A DNA stretch of 40,833 bases from a virus. Numbering within the stretch: position 1 is the first letter of the stretch; each line of letters starts with the position of its first letter. Of this stretch, positions 28,069 to 39,631 are shown one piece after another. The notes beneath the pieces are model-generated. The model saw only the letters and a list, made by a program, of their open reading frames with translations, had not been told where the DNA came from and did not search any database. The position numbers and the translations under genes are program-made. The stretch is taken from IMG/VR virus record IMGVR_UViG_3300007609_001205, positions 1-40,833 of that record. The stretch is one strand, 5' to 3'.

Positions 28069-29976
28069 TTAAATATGATTACGCCTCCAAACATACTTAT
28101 CTTGACCACAACCATAAACACGATGATACCCACGATCACACATTATCTCAACCTCTGTTTTAAGTGGGTCAAATCCATCTTTTATCAATTTACTTTTATT
28201 ATAATTGAACCTATGTTTACGAATACCATCAACAACCCACCAATAATTCGGTGATGTTCTGTATAACATTTCAAATCCCATTTTTTCATAAACCTTACCA
28301 GAAAACATTGATATATCAGCAAATGTGGATATCTCATCAACATCATTATTATCTATGTAATATTTAAATAATTTTGAAGCAGACCCATGTACTGTAGTGT
28401 TTAATTTATTACAAAATCTAACTAATTCATTTCCTTTCTTTGGAGAATGGAATAACATACAAGATACCAATTCACCATTATAAAAAAGACCAACAGCATC
28501 TCTATACGTTGTCTTGCCCTGTATATGATTCATATCTAAAAATTCATTAACCAACTTCTTATCATTTATCACTCTTATATCACACTTCCTACCGGGTATT
28601 TTATACTTGGTCAATCCTAAAAAATTCCTAATTATAGATTCAACAATATCTCGTTTATACAACCAATCATCTTCCCATATGTGTAGTAAATTAATACCTT
28701 GTTCATTACACAAATCAGTCTTTTCCAAATGATAATTAGAATGTTTATATAAGTCTGAGTGCCAATATAAACCATTATACTCAATTGCTATATTTTTCGA
28801 AGGTATATAAATATCCAATTCAAAGGGTGGTATTATTGATTTACTGTTTGGTATATACTCAACTCCAATACTATCCAACCATTCCATTATATTTTTCTCT
28901 TGACCCGACCCACTATTCAATGGGTTACATATTGAACATGGTTCAATGTTTACTGACAATCTTCTCTGTAATGTTGTTGGGTGTATCGAAAATGTATGTC
29001 CACATGAATCATTCTTCAAATCAACAAACCCCTTAATGTCTGAGGCGGATATGAATTCAAATCCCATATCATCATAGAATTTAATTCGTTTCATTAGCCT
29101 TTTTTCAACAAATTCATCACTATTTATGAGATTTTTATATTCTTCTGTTTGAGTATAATGAGTAGCACCATATTTATCATTCATTATACCATCTATGGAA
29201 TTTCTGAATTCATAAGATTGAAAATACCAATCAGTTCCATACTTTGACTTATTCGTATTTTTTACCTTATCAACATATATTGGGGACTGTGAATAATGAT
29301 CAACACCATACTTTGAATTATTGGTGGCAATTGCCTTGGCTTTATATTCATCTGTTCGTGTGAACCAATCAACTCCATATTTTTCTCTGTTTGTTCTAAT
29401 AGTCTTATCAATATATTCCAGACTTTGTACATAATGACCAACACCATATTTATACATCATAGTATCTTTAGAAGTTTTTTTAAACTCCTCTGTTTTGAAA
29501 TAATGATCAACACCATATCTCTTCAAACACGTATCTCGATACTTTTTTTTAACTTCCTCATTCTGGAAAGATGATGTTGTACCATATCTTTCTAAGTTCG
29601 TTGAAGCCTGTTTTTTTTTAACCGATAACAATTTAGCAACATTATCAACACCATACTTAGACAATGTTGTTTTTTTTCTTCTTACCTTAGTTTCCTTACT
29701 ATTTTGTGCACACTTAGCAGAACAATTCTTTTTATACCCATTTAACCAATTACGATTGAATGTGGTATCATTTCCACACACACATTTATAATATTTTGGG
29801 TAATCATTAACCCAATGCCATATCATTTGCTTGAAAGGTAAATCAAGAATTGAACAGAAATTTTCAATTTCTATTAATACCTCATTATAATTTTTTTCAA
29901 AATAACTTCTACGCATTCTGCTAGAACTACCATCCAATATATCGTTTATAACATTTAATCTCTTTTTAATAACCAT
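28069..29976 (-). CDS. Large homing endonuclease-like protein
   Basis: 635 residues. The N-terminal region has a Cys cluster (CVCGND, then CSAKCAQ), a likely zinc finger. Residues about 107-290 hold eight repeats of about 23 residues built on [KR]-Y-G-[VT]-x-x-[YF] (for example KYGVDHYSQSP), the DUF7487-type DNA-recognition repeat of phage mobile endonucleases. A second Cys pair (CSIC) precedes a Vsr/PD-(D/E)XK-like nuclease core, FELDIYIPSKNIAIEYNGLY, followed by WHS and LLHIWEDDW. A C-terminal GNAT-like region follows. It sits just downstream of the major capsid gene and its terminator, the sort of conserved site such free-standing endonucleases invade. Confidence 0.85.
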   Translation of the reverse strand: MVIKKRLNVINDILDGSSSRMRRSYFEKNYNEVLIEIENFCSILDLPFKQMIWHWVNDYPKYYKCVCGNDTTFNRNWLNGYKKNCSAKCAQNSKETKVRRKKTTLSKYGVDNVAKLLSVKKKQASTNLERYGTTSSFQNEEVKKKYRDTCLKRYGVDHYFKTEEFKKTSKDTMMYKYGVGHYVQSLEYIDKTIRTNREKYGVDWFTRTDEYKAKAIATNNSKYGVDHYSQSPIYVDKVKNTNKSKYGTDWYFQSYEFRNSIDGIMNDKYGATHYTQTEEYKNLINSDEFVEKRLMKRIKFYDDMGFEFISASDIKGFVDLKNDSCGHTFSIHPTTLQRRLSVNIEPCSICNPLNSGSGQEKNIMEWLDSIGVEYIPNSKSIIPPFELDIYIPSKNIAIEYNGLYWHSDLYKHSNYHLEKTDLCNEQGINLLHIWEDDWLYKRDIVESIIRNFLGLTKYKIPGRKCDIRVINDKKLVNEFLDMNHIQGKTTYRDAVGLFYNGELVSCMLFHSPKKGNELVRFCNKLNTTVHGSASKLFKYYIDNNDVDEISTFADISMFSGKVYEKMGFEMLYRTSPNYWWVVDGIRKHRFNYNKSKLIKDGFDPLKTEVEIMCDRGYHRVYGCGQDKYVWRRNHI

Positions 29977-30102: not shown

Positions 30103-31824
30103 TTAGTTTAATAACTGTGCATCATCCTTCACACGGATTGTCATGTACTGCTTCTCTGGGAAGAAACCAACGTCAGCAATCGCGTATCTTGATCTAAGTA
30201 GCATTCTTGGTGCGAATGTTGCCTCAGAAATAACAGAGATTGACTGTGCCATCAAATATGGTACGAAGATCAATCCTGGCTGATCTGGGTTATTCTTTCT
30301 ACCAAGTACGATTCGGTTATCGTTGTACTTCATGTATGGATCAACATATACCTGAATATCAGCTACTTGTCCAATTGGGTACAACTGACCCTGACCGTTC
30401 AACTTAGATTTAACTGGATTAACAGTGTATCCAACTACATCCATAAGAGCAGCAGCAAGACCCCCGTTAGTTACAGCGAACTGTGCTGGTCCAACACGAC
30501 CCTCAGTTGCGATGTAGTTAGAAGCATGCATCATCCTAGTGATGAGTTTTCTTTGAACTGCGTGAGTGGTTTCACCACCTGGTCCAGTTGTAGCTGTAAC
30601 ATATGCAGTATCAAGGTCGAAAATTGTATGACCTGTAATAGTTGCTGTTGCGGCTGCTGGAGCAGTTCCACGGTTAGCATCTCCAAGTTCGAAGATTCTT
30701 GAAATAATCTGCTTAGAGATTACCTGAGAAAGTTCATTAACAAGGATTGACTCCATTTTCTGAACGATATCCATACCTGTGTTAGCTTTGATATCCTCGA
30801 TTTCAGTTCTTCTAAGTGCAGAAGATACTTCAATAGTACCAACAGCAACAGATTTAGACGAAATCTTCGGTCCAATAACACCTGCATATCTTGAATCATC
30901 TTGATCACGATCCATTGGGTAATCACCAGAACTTGTATTAGAGTTCCAATTTGCAGAGAACCCTGGAAGCTGATCTTCAAGAGCAGATACCAAATCAACT
31001 GATACAGAAGAGAAGGTAACTCCTGAGAATGTACCTGCTGCCAATTGAGCGTTCATATTTGAAGCATTATCAAATGTATTTTTATCCGCATCCCACTGAT
31101 ATGGGTAAGCACCACTACCTGCACTATTAGGAGCAGTTGTAGAGTTAAACTGACGGAATGCTCTAAAAATAGGAAGACCATCTACACGAGAGAATCCTAA
31201 GAATTCCAACCAACCTGCTTTAGTAGCCGTAGGACCAGCAGTACCGATAGTATCGCTCAAGAAATCCAAGAACAATTGACCATCTTCCAATCCACCTTGT
31301 GTTTCTCTAAGACCCTCACTAGTTATATTGTGAGAAAGAGTTGCAGTAAGTGCAGTAAGTGCAGTAGCATCAGTTGAACTCAACTTGAATACTTGCGGTC
31401 TTGAATCACCACCAACATCTCTAAGATCATCATATTGGAAATCAATATAAAGAAGATCGATTTTTGGACCCGGAGTAGGTTTTACAGCAACAAGGTCAAG
31501 ACCAATTGTCTGGGCTGCGATTTTCATAGCTACTGGAAGTAGGTTCTGACCAAGATCACCTGATCCGATGTTACCTGAAACAGCACCTTGTGATCCAAAT
31601 CCTGAACCACCACCAAGGAGACCTGGTAGAGTACCTGGTTGTGCAGATTGAACACCGCCCATACCGGCAGTTGTAGCATTAACGTAAGCATTTTCATTGA
31701 TTGAATGGAATTCAGCATATTCTGACAACCAATCAAGTCTTTCTTCGTTAGTTACACCCATGTTTTCCAATACTGGACCCCATTTCTTAATAGCTTTTTG
31801 TTTGTCTATTCTAATGTGTGACAT
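30103..31824 (-). CDS. 23: Major capsid protein, T4 gp23-like
   Basis: 573 residues. T4-type features are IDLLYIDFQYDD near residue 125, LSQVISKQIISRIFELG, the helix RKLITRMMHASNYIATEGR, and the C-terminal block VYVDPYMKYNDNRIVLGRK with IFVPYLMAQS and MLLRSRYAIADVGFFPEKQY. These match gp23. The N-terminal propeptide carries I-N-E at residues 42-44 just before NAYVNATTAG, the right place and pattern for removal by the prohead protease encoded next door. The codon use looks more GC-rich and regular than in its neighbours, as expected for the most abundant protein. It is followed by a strong terminator. Confidence 0.95.
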   Translation of the reverse strand: MSHIRIDKQKAIKKWGPVLENMGVTNEERLDWLSEYAEFHSINENAYVNATTAGMGGVQSAQPGTLPGLLGGGSGFGSQGAVSGNIGSGDLGQNLLPVAMKIAAQTIGLDLVAVKPTPGPKIDLLYIDFQYDDLRDVGGDSRPQVFKLSSTDATALTALTATLSHNITSEGLRETQGGLEDGQLFLDFLSDTIGTAGPTATKAGWLEFLGFSRVDGLPIFRAFRQFNSTTAPNSAGSGAYPYQWDADKNTFDNASNMNAQLAAGTFSGVTFSSVSVDLVSALEDQLPGFSANWNSNTSSGDYPMDRDQDDSRYAGVIGPKISSKSVAVGTIEVSSALRRTEIEDIKANTGMDIVQKMESILVNELSQVISKQIISRIFELGDANRGTAPAAATATITGHTIFDLDTAYVTATTGPGGETTHAVQRKLITRMMHASNYIATEGRVGPAQFAVTNGGLAAALMDVVGYTVNPVKSKLNGQGQLYPIGQVADIQVYVDPYMKYNDNRIVLGRKNNPDQPGLIFVPYLMAQSISVISEATFAPRMLLRSRYAIADVGFFPEKQYMTIRVKDDAQLLN

Positions 31825-31864: not shown

Positions 31865-34069
31865 TTAAAGGTTTTTGAATCTTTCCATAATAGAATTCAT
31901 TTCACTCTCTGGCAGTTTATCCTCTTGGATAAGTGCTTCGTGAGAAACTAATTTCTTAGTTACAGTCTCATTCGTTTTGAGATTTCTAGTGTTCCAGAAG
32001 TGTTCCAACTGAGCTTCAGTTTGGAGTACTTCATCTGGATAAAGTCTTGCCTGTGAAAGAACAGACTTTCTAGTGCTCTCGTTTAATTGGTTCCAGATCG
32101 GCTTCATGTTTTCCGGCATCAATCTGAGGACTCTTTCTTCAAGAGTCTCGTTTTTAGTACTCAACGCTTCTGTGATCAACTTCAATACATCTTGTGTAGT
32201 GAAGAAACTTTTTTCGTTTATGTAAAGTTTAACAGTTTCTTGTTCCTCATTAGTGAGGCTGTAGAAACTATCGACCTGAGATTTGTTCAAGAATTTCAAG
32301 AAATGTACATCGGCAGTTTCAGAAGCCTTACGCTTCTTAGCTTCACCGATCAATTTATCAATAGATTTAGATAGTTCAGAATCTGAATCACCCGTAAATG
32401 CGGGTGCTTCTTCTTCACTAGTTTCTTCATCAGAAGATTCCTCATCAGCTTCATCAGAAGATTCTTCCTCTTCGGAAGTCACAACTTCATCAGAAGATTC
32501 TTCTTCTGCACTTACTTCTTCATCAGAAGATTCTTCATCACTTTCGGATTCTTCACCTTCTTTTGGAGTTTCATCTTGTGATGGAGACTGTGCCTCATCA
32601 CCAAGAGTTTCTTCTTCTTCTTCGATTGCTGTGAATCCAACTTCTTCCGGTGTTGGGAACATATTAGCAGATGCTTCACCATCTTCACCTTCTACGCTCT
32701 CGTTTATAGCACCTTCATTAAGCTTCTCAACGATTGTTCTTTGATAATCAATAGATTTATCAAGAGATTCAGCTACATACTCAGAGTACGCAATGTTATC
32801 ATCAAGATTTTCAGCAATGTATTCAGAGTATGCAATGTTACCCTGTACATGCTCTGATAAATATTCAGAGTATGCAATTGAATTGTCAAGATTTTCAGCA
32901 AGATATTCTCCGTAAGAGATTGACTTGTCAAGGTTCTCAGCAATGTATTCAGAGTATGCAATGTTCTTATCAAGATTTTCAGCAATGTATTCAGAGTATG
33001 CAATGTTCTTGTCAAGGTTCTCAGCAAGATATTCTCCGTAAGAGATTGACTTATCAAGGTTCTCAGCAAGATATTCTCCGTAAGAGATTGACTTGTCAAG
33101 ATTTTCAGCGATATACTCAGAGTAATCGATATTCTTGTCAAGATTTTCAGCAAGGTATTCTGAATAGTTTATAGACTTTTCAAGATTTTCCGCTAAATAA
33201 TCATTATGTTCAATGATTTTTTCTGTTTTTTCTTGAAGAGATTTGTTTTCATTAACAACTACTTGTACTTTTTCAGCCAAGTAATCAAGATACTTCTCCA
33301 TTTTCTTATCAGTATCAATAAGTTCATCGTAGTACTCAAGGAGTTGTTCCAATTTCTTTGGATCCAAATTCCCCTTTGTAATAGCCTTCTTAACTTCCTT
33401 CTTAGTAGAAGCCAATTCATTAACAAGATACTTCGAGTAATCTGTTAATTGTTGTTTAGTTACATAATCATTTTGGTTCATGTTGAATAGTTCATTTATT
33501 TTTGATTCATCTTTCATTTCGTAGATTCTGAAGTTAGAATCCGCTTTATATCCAAGCGACTCATTAAGAGGCTGAACATGCATTTTGGCTGACCCAAAAC
33601 CAGGGTCGGCTACGATATCATATGTGAATAATTTTTTCAGTGCAACAGAGCCATCGGCTTCAGTTATACCTGCTGCGCGAGATGAAACAAAAATTGGGCA
33701 ACCATCACTAACAAGTGATTTTGCCTCTTTACCCCAATAAGTTGAAAGTAACCTTATTTCACCCTCTATACGATTTTGCTCAGATACATATTTTGTTCTT
33801 TGGATAGTGTGGGATGATCTTGACAACGATGTATCAAAAACATCCGGGTGGTCAAATTCACCATATACTGCACCAAGTGTCTGAATTCTTTCATTCAACT
33901 CATCCAAGGCAGGTAAGAACTTATCTGCCGTATAAACACGGTCATTCCTGTTCTTAACACCAAACTCAGTGAAAATACCACTCAATAGATACTTATCATC
34001 TGCGCTACGTGCCGCTTCGTTCATTTTCAACGAATTTGTTGAGTTTTCTACGACTAATACTGGTTTCAT
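31865..34069 (-). CDS. 21: Fused prohead protease and scaffold (gp21/gp22-like)
   Basis: 734 residues. Residues 1-170 are a gp21-type serine protease: YGEFDHPD gives His74, CPIFVSSRAAG gives the Ser at 129 or 130, and YDIVADPGF gives a candidate Asp. QPLNE at 166-170 fits the self-cleavage pattern L-x-E at the domain border. Residues about 285-445 contain about eleven 14-residue repeats of the type Y-S-E-Y-[LI]-A-E-N-L-D-K-S-I. Residues about 476-560 are extremely acidic and Ser-rich. A helical C-terminal domain follows. T4 encodes protease and scaffold separately, so this is a fusion. It lies directly upstream of the major capsid gene, as in T4. Confidence 0.9.
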   Translation of the reverse strand: MKPVLVVENSTNSLKMNEAARSADDKYLLSGIFTEFGVKNRNDRVYTADKFLPALDELNERIQTLGAVYGEFDHPDVFDTSLSRSSHTIQRTKYVSEQNRIEGEIRLLSTYWGKEAKSLVSDGCPIFVSSRAAGITEADGSVALKKLFTYDIVADPGFGSAKMHVQPLNESLGYKADSNFRIYEMKDESKINELFNMNQNDYVTKQQLTDYSKYLVNELASTKKEVKKAITKGNLDPKKLEQLLEYYDELIDTDKKMEKYLDYLAEKVQVVVNENKSLQEKTEKIIEHNDYLAENLEKSINYSEYLAENLDKNIDYSEYIAENLDKSISYGEYLAENLDKSISYGEYLAENLDKNIAYSEYIAENLDKNIAYSEYIAENLDKSISYGEYLAENLDNSIAYSEYLSEHVQGNIAYSEYIAENLDDNIAYSEYVAESLDKSIDYQRTIVEKLNEGAINESVEGEDGEASANMFPTPEEVGFTAIEEEEETLGDEAQSPSQDETPKEGEESESDEESSDEEVSAEEESSDEVVTSEEEESSDEADEESSDEETSEEEAPAFTGDSDSELSKSIDKLIGEAKKRKASETADVHFLKFLNKSQVDSFYSLTNEEQETVKLYINEKSFFTTQDVLKLITEALSTKNETLEERVLRLMPENMKPIWNQLNESTRKSVLSQARLYPDEVLQTEAQLEHFWNTRNLKTNETVTKKLVSHEALIQEDKLPESEMNSIMERFKNL
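32750..33205 (-). repeat. 42-bp tandem coding repeats in the scaffold
   Basis: About eleven near-identical 42-bp units plus diverged ends encode the 14-residue coiled-coil repeats of the scaffold. Variation alternates between units (LAE/IAE, SYG/AYS), suggesting duplication of larger blocks. Repeats like this can expand or contract by slippage and could be mistaken for a CRISPR-like array, but they are in frame and translated. Confidence 0.9.
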
Positions 34070-34711: not shown

Positions 34712-34739
34712 CTATTTGAAAAAGAACCATATAATACGT

Positions 34740-36185
34740 ATGACAAAAGAAGAGAAAACAGAAAAATTAAAGAAATTAAGAGCCAGAGCATCCGAACTAA
34801 AAAAAGATGTTGATTATTACAATGCAATGCAATTGGCACTTAAACTTGTATTGAATGGATCATATGGTGCATTGGCAACACCATACTTCATATTATTCAG
34901 TGAACACGTGGCGGGGAGTATTACTGCACAAGGTAGGGAACTCACAAAACGGATGGATACTGACAATGAAGAGTATTGGTTCAATTTATGGCATAATGAC
35001 TTCGAACTACATAGTAGAATGGGTCTCAAAAATGCTAAAAGAATTCCAGATACAGAAAAAGTATCAATATACGCAGACACAGATTCACTATTTGTTTCAT
35101 TTGAACCGGTCATAAACCACTGTCAGTGGAAAAATAATTTCATAGACCCGACCCGAATGGAAAATATCACACACAAGGTTCTTATATTAGAACATCGCCA
35201 GAAAACGATTGTCAAGAACCCAAATATAAAATCCATTCATATAGATGATCTAGAAAATTTTGAAAAAATGGACATTACCAATATTCTCAAAGAAATACAG
35301 AATGGTGGTTATGAACGATTTGTCATAGATGGTGCATTTGTGAAAGATAGAACATTCAATGATAAAATACTCCCATTGATAAATGGAACCATATATTGGA
35401 ATTGGTCGTGTGAATTGGATTTCATCCAAGGATTTGACCATTTCAGATATGCACAATACTTCAAAGATTGTCTGGATACATATGCAAGTGAATATGGCGT
35501 AAAGAACAAAGAAGATTTCGAACTTGAAAGAATATCAGAATCCATTGTAAATATAGCCAAAAAGAAATACATCCAACATATATTATTCGAAGACGGAATC
35601 GATTACGAAAGACTTAATTATATCTTCCCAAAAGGTGTTGAACTTGTAAGGTCATCCACCCCATTGTTTGCAAGGGAGAAGATTATTGATATCGTTAAGT
35701 ATATTTTCTCACATCCGGATGATTTTAATATCAAAACCCTTCTCAAATTGGTCAAGGATCTCAGACGAGAATTTGAGATGGCAGACATGAATGAAATATC
35801 TATGCAGTCATCCGTTAATAAGTATGAAGAAAAAGTGATAGAAGATAAAGACAGACTCCTATTTGTCAGTGGGGCACACTTTGCAGTTAAGGCTGCAGCC
35901 CACCACAACCACTTATTACACAAGAAGAAAGAATTACAAGCAAAGTATGAATTCTTGAAATCGGGTATGAAGATAAAATACTATTATTGCAAGAATAACA
36001 GAACTGCACCAATATTTGCATTCCAACGTGGTTCCTACCCATTGGAGTTAGCACCAGAAATTGACTACGATACACAATTCCAAAAATGTATCTTATCACC
36101 CATAAATGCAATCATTGAACCACTTGGGATGCCGGAGATAACCAAAAGACTTACTGTGGTCATGGACATATTCTCTAAATTTTAA
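34740..36185 (+). CDS. 43: DNA polymerase family B, C-terminal fragment (gp43-like)
   Basis: 481 residues from the ATG at 34740 (an in-frame TTG lies at 34716). Motif B KLVLNGSYGAL and motif C IYADTDSLFVSF, the second metal-binding aspartates of family B polymerases, are both present, followed by a thumb region ending MPEITKRLTVVMDIFSKF. The exonuclease domain and motif A (DxxSLYP) are absent: an in-frame stop lies at 34692-34694, and the upstream gene is unrelated. The protein therefore starts inside the fingers and can work only together with an N-terminal half encoded elsewhere. Split gp43 genes are known in some T4-like phages. The location, between portal and protease genes, is not the usual one. 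Confidence 0.9.
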   Translation: MTKEEKTEKLKKLRARASELKKDVDYYNAMQLALKLVLNGSYGALATPYFILFSEHVAGSITAQGRELTKRMDTDNEEYWFNLWHNDFELHSRMGLKNAKRIPDTEKVSIYADTDSLFVSFEPVINHCQWKNNFIDPTRMENITHKVLILEHRQKTIVKNPNIKSIHIDDLENFEKMDITNILKEIQNGGYERFVIDGAFVKDRTFNDKILPLINGTIYWNWSCELDFIQGFDHFRYAQYFKDCLDTYASEYGVKNKEDFELERISESIVNIAKKKYIQHILFEDGIDYERLNYIFPKGVELVRSSTPLFAREKIIDIVKYIFSHPDDFNIKTLLKLVKDLRREFEMADMNEISMQSSVNKYEEKVIEDKDRLLFVSGAHFAVKAAAHHNHLLHKKKELQAKYEFLKSGMKIKYYYCKNNRTAPIFAFQRGSYPLELAPEIDYDTQFQKCILSPINAIIEPLGMPEITKRLTVVMDIFSKF

Positions 36186-36235: not shown

Positions 36236-36616
36236 ATGATATTGACCAGAGAAGTAGACATTAAGATAAACCAATCCAATTATCAATATTTTGATGATAT
36301 GGGTTATGAGATATGTATTGGTCAAATAATAACAATACCCATAGAATTATTATCAAAAGGATCACACCAAAAGTTAAAATGTAAGTGTGACGGTTGTGGC
36401 ATAATGAAAGATGTAATATTCAAAAATTATGTAAATTATGATAATAAATGGGGATATTACTATTGCAGAAAGTGTTCTGAATCTAAGAGGAAAGCAACCC
36501 TCAAAGAGAATTATGGGGTAGAATACCCACTTCAGAATGAAGAAATATATCACAAAATGAAATCCACTTTAAAGAAAAAAAGATACACACGAAATGAAAA
36601 AGTTGATAATAAATAA
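36236..36616 (+). CDS. Homing-endonuclease remnant with zinc finger and one YGV repeat
   Basis: 126 residues. A Cys cluster (CKCDGCG and CRKCSE), a likely zinc finger, is followed by one repeat, LKENYGVEYPLQNEEIYHKM, of the same type as the repeats in the large endonuclease at 28069-29976. No nuclease core follows: the protein stops after KKKRYTRNEKVDNK. It therefore looks like a truncated mobile endonuclease, or a small DNA-binding regulator derived from one. It lies 50 nt after the polymerase fragment and overlaps the next gene by 23 nt. Confidence 0.7.
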   Translation: MILTREVDIKINQSNYQYFDDMGYEICIGQIITIPIELLSKGSHQKLKCKCDGCGIMKDVIFKNYVNYDNKWGYYYCRKCSESKRKATLKENYGVEYPLQNEEIYHKMKSTLKKKRYTRNEKVDNK

Positions 36617-37322: not shown

Positions 37323-37762
37323 CATCAAAAATCAAAGTAGATAGACACATACGTGAGTTCGAAAAAATGCTAGACATCTATTCATCCTACAAAGGTTGTC
37401 TAAGAACACTTAAATTAAACTCCATACTTGGCAAAAAATCTAAATTCACCATAGAGGAGATGAACCCAAGAATGACCATTGATCTGAATAATAGTAATGG
37501 TAATTCCATATTAACCTCATCCGATTACCAAACATCTTCCGTATTCACAATAAAAAACTTATCATTTATTATCAGTGATGACCTATATGTTGATGAAATT
37601 GAGTTAAAATATGACATTATTAATAAAGAATTATTAAACAGAGTCATCGAAAATTCAAATGACATTAAAATATCTCTTAAAGTATCATATAATGGTCTAA
37701 CCAAAGAACAACAAGTTGCAGGGTTTTACCTTGAGTTGAGTGATTTGATTCTCAACGATTAA
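37319..37762 (+). CDS. Unknown protein closing the plus-strand block
   Basis: 147 residues. The N-terminal helix (VDRHIREFEKMLDIYSSYKG) is basic. The rest is beta-rich (MTIDLNNSNGNSILTSSDYQ, FIISDDLYVDEIELKYDI). No domain recognised. It is coupled to the gene upstream by ATGA. Its stop codon overlaps the stop codon of the convergent portal gene by 4 nt, so the insertion boundary is tight and leaves no room for a terminator. Confidence 0.65.
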   Translation: MTSKIKVDRHIREFEKMLDIYSSYKGCLRTLKLNSILGKKSKFTIEEMNPRMTIDLNNSNGNSILTSSDYQTSSVFTIKNLSFIISDDLYVDEIELKYDIINKELLNRVIENSNDIKISLKVSYNGLTKEQQVAGFYLELSDLILND

Positions 37763-39492
37763 AATTCAAATTCATCACCGCCACCGACACCACCTTCATC
37801 TGGACCACCTTCATCACCACCAATATCTGGACCACCTTCATCACCACCACCGAAGTCGTCACCGCCACCAAAGTCGTCACCGCCACCAAAGTCGTCACCG
37901 CCACCAAAGTCGCCGCCACCGCCACCGCCACCGGCACCGGCACCACCCTCCATACCTTCAGCACTACCGGCACCATTAGGATCTCTTTCCCAATACCGTC
38001 TATTTTCTTCTTTGTCCTCAGGAGATAATTTAAGAATGTGATCGACTAGATAATCAATGTGAAAATATGGACTACCATCGGGTTTAACAACACCCGTCAT
38101 TGTTTGAAGTATCTCAGCCTTTTTTGCAAGGTTACCCAATTTTTTCCACTCCTCAAATAATTGATTCGATAAGAAATCGATATCCATCTGATTCATGATC
38201 TTTTGGTCTTCTTTCAATTCAGGGAACTCAACCAACATCTGCAGTTTCAATGGTTTAACAATAAGTTCTTTGAAGATTGCTCTTTGTCTTTGTATGAAAC
38301 TAGAAAATTCTGCCTCATCTCTTGTTATCTCAGCAGCATCAGTGAATACATTACCACCACCATTCTCATCTTGAAAACGCAACATAGGAATCTTAGAAGC
38401 CCTTTTCAATATGTTAAAGAACCATTTAAGTATATTATCCTCATTCAAATCATGACCTTGTGGTGATACAATCTCCATACTCGGCTGACCAGCATCCCCC
38501 TCAGGAAACCAAAACTGCTTATTATATGGTAAATGTTTATGCCCATTTATACTCAATGTACCCATAGAATCATCCCACTCTACCTCTTCTGAATAATCTT
38601 GTATCAGTTGTCCAATTTGTTCTTCGGCTCTCTGACGACCCAGGCCCTTTGTTGGGATAACAAATTTCTGATAAAGTGTTGCATTTATCATATTGAACAT
38701 TATCTTGGTCTGTTCAATAATCTTCAATTGGTTATATGGCTTTATAAGACCTTCAACATAAGAAGTTTCTGAATAATCATTCTGTGATGAATATGAAATA
38801 AATACCATCTGAGAATCTAAGAAAATTCTTCTCAATTGTGGATCTTCCGGATACTGTATCCACAAATGACCAATATTTGGTTCATATGCAGGTACAATTG
38901 TCTGTGGTTCAAGTCTATTGAAACTTATAATATTCTTGTTCTTATCATCCCAAACAATCTCCATTGCAATGTGTCCATCTATAAGGAAATCTCTCATTAA
39001 GTTCCAAGCAGATATCGAGTCAGAGAACCCATAAGTGTTATAAATCGTATCAAAATATTCCAAATACTTATCTCTTACCTCTTGTGGGTAATCATTGGAT
39101 ATATGTGAAGCATTACAGAAATCCTTATCTGAATAAACAATTGCCTCATCACATACTGTTGAAACGAAATCACGAATCTCATCTTTAATAGAATATTCTC
39201 TGAGAATCCTTCTCTTATCTGCATAACTTCTATCAAGGTATGGTATTGACTTCTGTGATAAAACACTGGCAACTGCCTTCCTCGAAAAGAAATCATACAT
39301 TGAATTACCTTCAACTGAATGTGGGTCTTCATTGATATTCACACCAACTGTGTTACGCATGATCATATCATCATAATTCATACCCCAATTGGAAAGGTTT
39401 CTCAATATTCTTGAAAATAAACCTCGGTTCTCCACTGCCGAGTTCGCAAAAGAAAATTGATCTTGATTATTATTCGGATTATAACTAGCCAT
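37759..39492 (-). CDS. 20: Portal vertex protein, T4 gp20-like
   Basis: 577 residues from the ATG at 39492 (MASYNPNNNQDQFSF). The frame is open to 39549, but that part is antisense-frame shadow of the HTH gene, whose stop lies 4 nt before this ATG. The gp20-type body is seen in DEIRDFVSTVCDEAIVYSD, LMRDFLIDGHIAMEIVWDD, the clip/stem region KFVIPTKGLGRQRAEEQIG, and the long-helix and crown region PMLRFQDENGGGNVFTDAAE. The last 75 residues are Gly/Asp-rich repeats (GGGDDF repeated four times), unusual for gp20 and probably flexible. It makes the dodecameric ring for DNA entry and exit. Confidence 0.92.
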   Translation of the reverse strand: MASYNPNNNQDQFSFANSAVENRGLFSRILRNLSNWGMNYDDMIMRNTVGVNINEDPHSVEGNSMYDFFSRKAVASVLSQKSIPYLDRSYADKRRILREYSIKDEIRDFVSTVCDEAIVYSDKDFCNASHISNDYPQEVRDKYLEYFDTIYNTYGFSDSISAWNLMRDFLIDGHIAMEIVWDDKNKNIISFNRLEPQTIVPAYEPNIGHLWIQYPEDPQLRRIFLDSQMVFISYSSQNDYSETSYVEGLIKPYNQLKIIEQTKIMFNMINATLYQKFVIPTKGLGRQRAEEQIGQLIQDYSEEVEWDDSMGTLSINGHKHLPYNKQFWFPEGDAGQPSMEIVSPQGHDLNEDNILKWFFNILKRASKIPMLRFQDENGGGNVFTDAAEITRDEAEFSSFIQRQRAIFKELIVKPLKLQMLVEFPELKEDQKIMNQMDIDFLSNQLFEEWKKLGNLAKKAEILQTMTGVVKPDGSPYFHIDYLVDHILKLSPEDKEENRRYWERDPNGAGSAEGMEGGAGAGGGGGGGDFGGGDDFGGGDDFGGGDDFGGGDEGGPDIGGDEGGPDEGGVGGGDEFEF

Positions 39493-39496
39493 AATA

Positions 39497-39631
39497 TTAC
39501 TTCTTTTTTTTATCCAAGTATATATACCTACCTGATGGCGTTTTTTCAACGTTGATCAAACCCTTCTTTACCCAATTGGATAAAGTTCTTCTTGTAATAT
39601 TGTATTTTTCCATTACTTCTTTAGCTTTCAT
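39497..39631 (-). CDS. 44-residue MerR-like helix-turn-helix protein
   Basis: Start ATG at 39631, stop TAA at 39497. The sequence has AKEVMEKYNITRRTLSNWVK followed by KGLINVEKTPSGRYIYLD, the winged helix-turn-helix of MerR/IS607-type N-terminal domains: recognition helix RRTLSNW and wing TPSGRYIY. No effector or dimerisation domain follows. Its stop is 4 nt upstream of the portal start, and TTTAATATATA ends 6 nt before its own ATG. It may regulate the portal or late operon, or be a relic of a transposon-type regulator. Confidence 0.75.
   Translation of the reverse strand: MKAKEVMEKYNITRRTLSNWVKKGLINVEKTPSGRYIYLDKKKK

Follow-up and report, generated by a model that had tools for sequence, protein, structure and literature searches.

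In phage T4, the prohead protease gp21 cuts after L/I-x-E and the scaffold protein gp22 is broken down into pieces that exit the head ahead of packaging (PMC9026906, PMC9958956). Any residue is accepted at P2 by this protease, and processing of the T4 IPIII site is blocked by an Asp there (PMC9026906). The two T4 proteins derive from separate genes and are made in unequal amounts, and the sites in gp22 are irregularly spaced. Comparing other phages, we found the protease and the next ORF to be separate in GAP32 and PA5oct and fused in PTm1, pT24, MA9V-2 and Lak, the fused protein of the Tenacibaculum phages PTm1 and pT24 being named 'prohead core scaffolding protein and protease'. The largest reported genomes have been grouped with Lak as Mahaphage (PMC7162821). 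None of the papers searched described a phage scaffold whose repeats carry protease sites.

The stretch of viral DNA analyzed here, taken at its full length of 40 833 nucleotides and called the window below, has the gene order portal, protease/scaffold, capsid, which is the same arrangement as in T4 (21/22), with a gp23-family gene directly downstream of the scaffold-bearing fusion ORF. The coordinates and strand of this ORF were verified.

37759–39549 (−): portal protein, gp20 family (PF07230, E 9e-57)
31865–34069 (−): protease–scaffold fusion gene, 734 aa (ORF; PHROG 207 head maturation protease, E 6.6e-26; about 90 unique relatives)
30103–31824 (−): major capsid protein, gp23 family (PF07068, E 5.4e-28)

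The product of the ORF at 31865–34069 (−) is a prohead protease of the T4 gp21 fold fused to a scaffold-like helical region, and was found to be organized as follows.

33569–34069 (−): prohead protease domain, aa 1–167 (Foldseek match to T4 gp21; invariant columns)
33557–33568 (−): border site L-N-E/S, aa 168–171, the predicted self-cleavage point
33479–33481 (−): Met197, a conserved Met where the scaffold part begins and a possible internal start
33200–33457 (−): helical linker, aa 205–290, in which aa 263–290 form two degenerate 14-aa rows (AlphaFold helices; site excess in aa 168–290)
32738–33199 (−): eleven 14-aa repeats, aa 291–444, consensus YLAENLDKNIAYSE, with a candidate cut after Glu4 (TRF and row alignment)
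32342–32617 (−): acidic Ser/Glu-rich stretch, aa 485–576, without internal candidate sites and predicted to be mostly disordered (site scan and AlphaFold model)
31868–32365 (−): C-terminal helical domain, aa 569–734, common to Lak phages (alignment; helices in the model)

Using the AlphaFold model of the fusion protein as a Foldseek query gave T4 gp21 as the top PDB match (5jbl, E 1.3e-7, TMt 0.68). Of the Pfam peptidase families, PF20034 (S80) scored 24.6 bits, just above its cut-off of 23.4, and PF03420 (S77) scored 19.7 bits, below its cut-off of 27, while matches to families such as plant LTI65 and PSCyt2 were discarded as low-complexity noise. His74 in FDHP and Ser129/130 in VSSR were invariant among the relatives, and His-Pro and Ser-Ser-Arg motifs are also present in T4 gp21. 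The protease part is of the T4 gp21 kind (peptidase S77/S80), with its predicted cleavage after L/I-x-E being read from motifs. The first-pass annotation, made from the letters of the DNA, had called the gene a protease–scaffold fusion, and the gp21 fold, the PHROG 207 profile and the scaffold-like remainder of the protein confirmed this. The likeness to T4 thus comprises the protease fold, the gene order, the L/I-x-E motif and a motif-rich scaffold; the scaffold part had no sequence homology to T4 gp22 in an hhalign comparison (probability 0.5%, E 0.12). By analogy, the scaffold part most likely works like gp22, the locus then presenting the T4-type gp21/gp22 mechanism in a new form.

A 42-bp tandem array was located by TRF at 32757–33190, and all eleven consecutive 14-residue rows of the row alignment carry Y-[LIV]-[AS]-E followed by [NHS], in agreement with the earlier count of about eleven such repeats. 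Two looser rows, starting at aa 263 and 277, precede them in register. The proposal that each repeat comprises two heptads of coiled coil held in part: the row shows an amphipathic pattern that recurs every 3.5 residues, but in its second heptad polar residues occupy two places where core residues would be expected. In the AlphaFold model, helices span residues 205–232, 237–355 and 362–451, those of the array having moderate confidence (pLDDT ≈47–68), and are followed by the disordered acidic stretch and the small helical C-terminal domain. The PDB sequences that matched the array best (sc-CC-5-24, a three-helix bundle) were put down to composition-driven coil resemblance. The acidic stretch and the C-terminal, likewise acidic, part of T4 gp67 are alike in composition only. 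An extra segment (LTPGQVVKIDDDKTGEILAMNADNGIAVVKL...) lies between the acidic stretch and the C-terminal domain only in the clades of L003, L119, L124 and L126, and looks like a small beta domain.

Relatives of the fusion were collected from IMG/VR and a phage collection, giving about 90 unique sequences in seven clades (A–G). The nearest complete genomes having the fusion together with the array were the Mahaphages LR745206, LR756504, LR756502 and LR756501 (634–735 kb), with 46–69% identity and slightly different row counts, in records without annotation. The fused protease of Lak phages (540–550 kb) shares the protease, the border site, the acidic stretch and the C-terminal domain, but is without the 14-residue array. 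The PTm1 and pT24 fusions also lack the YLAEN array and have different helical segments. By eye, the PTm1 scaffold (locus L093, 5067–6761) has unrelated helical repeats of its own, of about 16 residues (EKWI...ELSEGI), many with x-x-E. Across all clades, 859 of 903 gaps between neighboring candidate sites in the arrays were exactly 14 residues, the spacing being near perfect in the large-array clades. In clade A, with about 66 sequences at close to 70% identity, row number and row identity were stable; single 42-bp units have been gained or lost there (11–13 rows; one extra in L076, one fewer in L086).

Calling the rows blind to position 4, by masking it together with position 11, we found Glu at position 4 in 88% of rows (clade-weighted), with values of 96% in clade A (66 sequences), 92% in B, 97% in C, 100% in G, 88% in F, 76% in D and 70% in E. 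With equal clade weights, position 4 had the lowest entropy of all 14 positions (0.82 bit), whereas position 11 was the most variable (3.02 bit, Glu 15%), and position 2, corresponding to P3, was I, L or V in every row called. On a helical wheel, positions 4 and 11 both lie at about 154 degrees to the hydrophobic centre, and since position 11 on the same helix face varies most, coil packing alone is insufficient to account for Glu4. Codon differences within clade A were synonymous in 96% of cases at position 4 as compared with 33% at position 11, these being pair counts of non-independent events. These results support that one [LIV]-x-E per repeat is maintained by purifying selection, on the exposed side of the helix, where Glu would not be required for packing of the coil.

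The claim that every repeat has a site had been paired with a refuting observation, namely homologues that keep the repeats but lack the Glu, and this was encountered in part. L005 (462 kb) retains 12 rows, but five of these have N, S or V at position 4, and clade E retains 8–9 rows with K, L, D or T there in some; across L005 and L099–L111, the residues found instead of Glu in part of the rows were N, S, V, K, L, D and T. In total, Glu4 was missing from 24% of clade D rows and 30% of clade E rows. Because divergent relatives lose Glu4 in some rows, the large-array clades are the only ones to which the wordings 'every repeat' and 'uniform peptides' apply, and even in these the interval between sites ranges over 7–28 residues. 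Along the arrays of the Glu4-losing relatives a candidate site still recurs within about 4–28 residues, and the constraint looks like one against long uncut stretches of rod, rather than for one site per unit without exception.

The abundance of motifs was not confined to the repeats. Among the 38 ORFs of the window, the fusion ORF had the strongest [LIV]xE excess, at z 4.1 against 2.3 for the runner-up. The shuffle p-value of the array is inflated, its rows being copies of one another; the non-repetitive linker (aa 168–290) was itself enriched, with 9 sites observed and 3.3 expected (p 0.0006). Scaffolds of other phages likewise had [LI]xE excess, with z values of 5.1 for T4 gp22, 6.7 for GAP32, 3.9 for PA5oct, 5.0 for PTm1 and 4.4 for pT24, and no such excess was seen in T4 mature gp23, gp20 and gp18 (capsid, portal and sheath). 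All clade representatives retained the scaffold motif excess (z 2.1–5.8), including clades D–F (z 3.7–5.8). Motif excess being general in T4-like scaffolds, the array of the window is a regularly spaced case of a general rule and no exception to it.

Candidate sites at the protease border and in the capsid protein were compared with those of the repeats. The QPLNE/S sequence (aa 166–170) that had been pointed out at the border between protease and scaffold proved to be strongly conserved, with N169-E170 invariant in 26 relatives including Lak, and the 59 distinct border sites among relatives were all [LIV]-N-E, with the pattern [LIV]-N-E-[SA]. In the capsid gene, a site of the form [ILM]-x-E-[NS] occurs at the same place in array-bearing relatives.

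31693–31824 (−): predicted capsid-protein propeptide, ending at SINE44/N45

The 36 distinct capsid propeptide sites had the form [ILM]-x-E-N. The 970 repeat sites have P3 and P1 in common with the border and capsid sites, and the favored Asn at P1' in common with the capsid sites, but differ at P2, which is Ala in the repeats and mostly Asn in the border and capsid sites.

We consider it probable that the fusion protein is a pre-scored, self-destructing scaffold rod cut after the Glu of [L/I/V]-x-E, the sites being candidates recognized by motif. The fusion product would make up the prohead core, with a gp21-type serine protease joined to a long amphipathic-helix scaffold, and its subunits would assemble as rods that template the shell. 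Once activated, the protease would cut after Glu of [L/I/V]-x-E at its own C-terminal border, where the motif is invariant, and also at the capsid-protein propeptide and at sites all along the rod. With the motif facing outward on the helix in nearly every repeat, the rod would be evenly scored and break up into short peptides which, by comparison with T4, may exit or be displaced before DNA packaging, while the site-free acidic stretch (aa 485–576) would be released whole as one larger, 92-aa acidic peptide. The array is old and under purifying selection, and its length would be no ruler for head size. More tentatively, and with some doubt, each rod could bring its own protease and be cut in register at every second heptad, so that each subunit would yield about eleven 14-mers of nearly the same sequence, and selection would act on the even spacing as such.

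As for other readings of Glu4, we find it distinctly unlikely that cuts occur only at the border, linker and C-terminal sites, with Glu4 kept for assembly through rod–rod salt bridges or shell docking and its likeness to a cleavage site being incidental. Such a role would agree with the P2 residue of the repeats being unlike that of the likely true sites, and also with Tyr1 and Tyr12 being nearly as conserved as Glu4, from which it follows that the exposed surface is under other constraint as well. It fits poorly, however, with Glu4 pointing away from the hydrophobic centre at the very angle of the freely varying position 11, with its likely i+4 partner Lys8 being just 50% conserved, and with the motif excess being found also in non-repeat T4-like scaffolds. 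That the array arose neutrally by DNA slippage and serves no particular function is hardly credible; its tandem nature and some near-identical neighboring units are what slippage would give, but codon differences between orthologous rows are mostly synonymous at most positions, and the stability of rows among the clade-A sequences also speaks against it. We therefore rejected neutral slippage, as the codon pattern contradicts it. The suggestion that repeat number sets core length, and hence acts as a ruler for core or head size, is very improbable and was not borne out when genome length was taken as the sole proxy for head volume: the gain and loss of single units in clade A would provide variation for a ruler, but about 12 rows are found alike at 462, 635, 636, 642 and 735 kb, and none in Lak phages.

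A further possibility, compatible with the self-destructing rod, is that a scaffold-only product is also made from Met197, so that most scaffold would be without protease. In phage lambda, C and Nu3 are such a nested protease and scaffold, the scaffold being made from an internal in-frame start. Unless a scaffold-only product starts at Met197, being fused gives every scaffold subunit a protease of its own, a situation different from T4, which uses gp22 in far larger amount than gp21 (PMC9958956). Met197 is present in 63 of 65 clade-A sequences, a Met is found near the same place in other clades, and synonymous variation is reduced just upstream of it. We nevertheless hold an internal start to be rather unlikely, as no start signal at Met197 is common to other genes and synonymous variation is lower still in several C-terminal stretches. 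The sequence AAAATAA, considered as a start signal at Met197, was found at 3 of 30 window genes and was dismissed as not general.

If the self-destructing, evenly pre-scored rod is true, it would be a feature of the largest known phages, for whose Mahaphage group this protein is a strong scaffold candidate. It gives exact peptide predictions for mass spectrometry, in the form of NLDKNIAYSEYIAE-type peptides and the 92-aa acidic fragment, and the even array would be a natural ladder for studying the attack of a prohead protease on a helical rod.

Some other elements were seen around the head genes. The C-terminal end of the portal protein is a Gly/Asp-rich tandem array of GGGDDF units at 37789–37944 (−). 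Between the portal and protease genes, on the opposite strand at 34716–36185 (+), a match to PF00136 (E 3.8e-19) marks the C-terminal portion of a family-B DNA polymerase, which among the fetched loci was present only in L008, L009 and at the edge of L010, and which accounts for the only PF00136 matches in the 151 869-base record. On either side of the head genes, at 28069–29976 (−) and 36236–36616 (+), genes for two DUF7487 proteins are found, both proteins having KYGV.HY repeats and one also weakly matching the MTES_1575 endonuclease fold; these genes look like insertions of the homing-endonuclease type.
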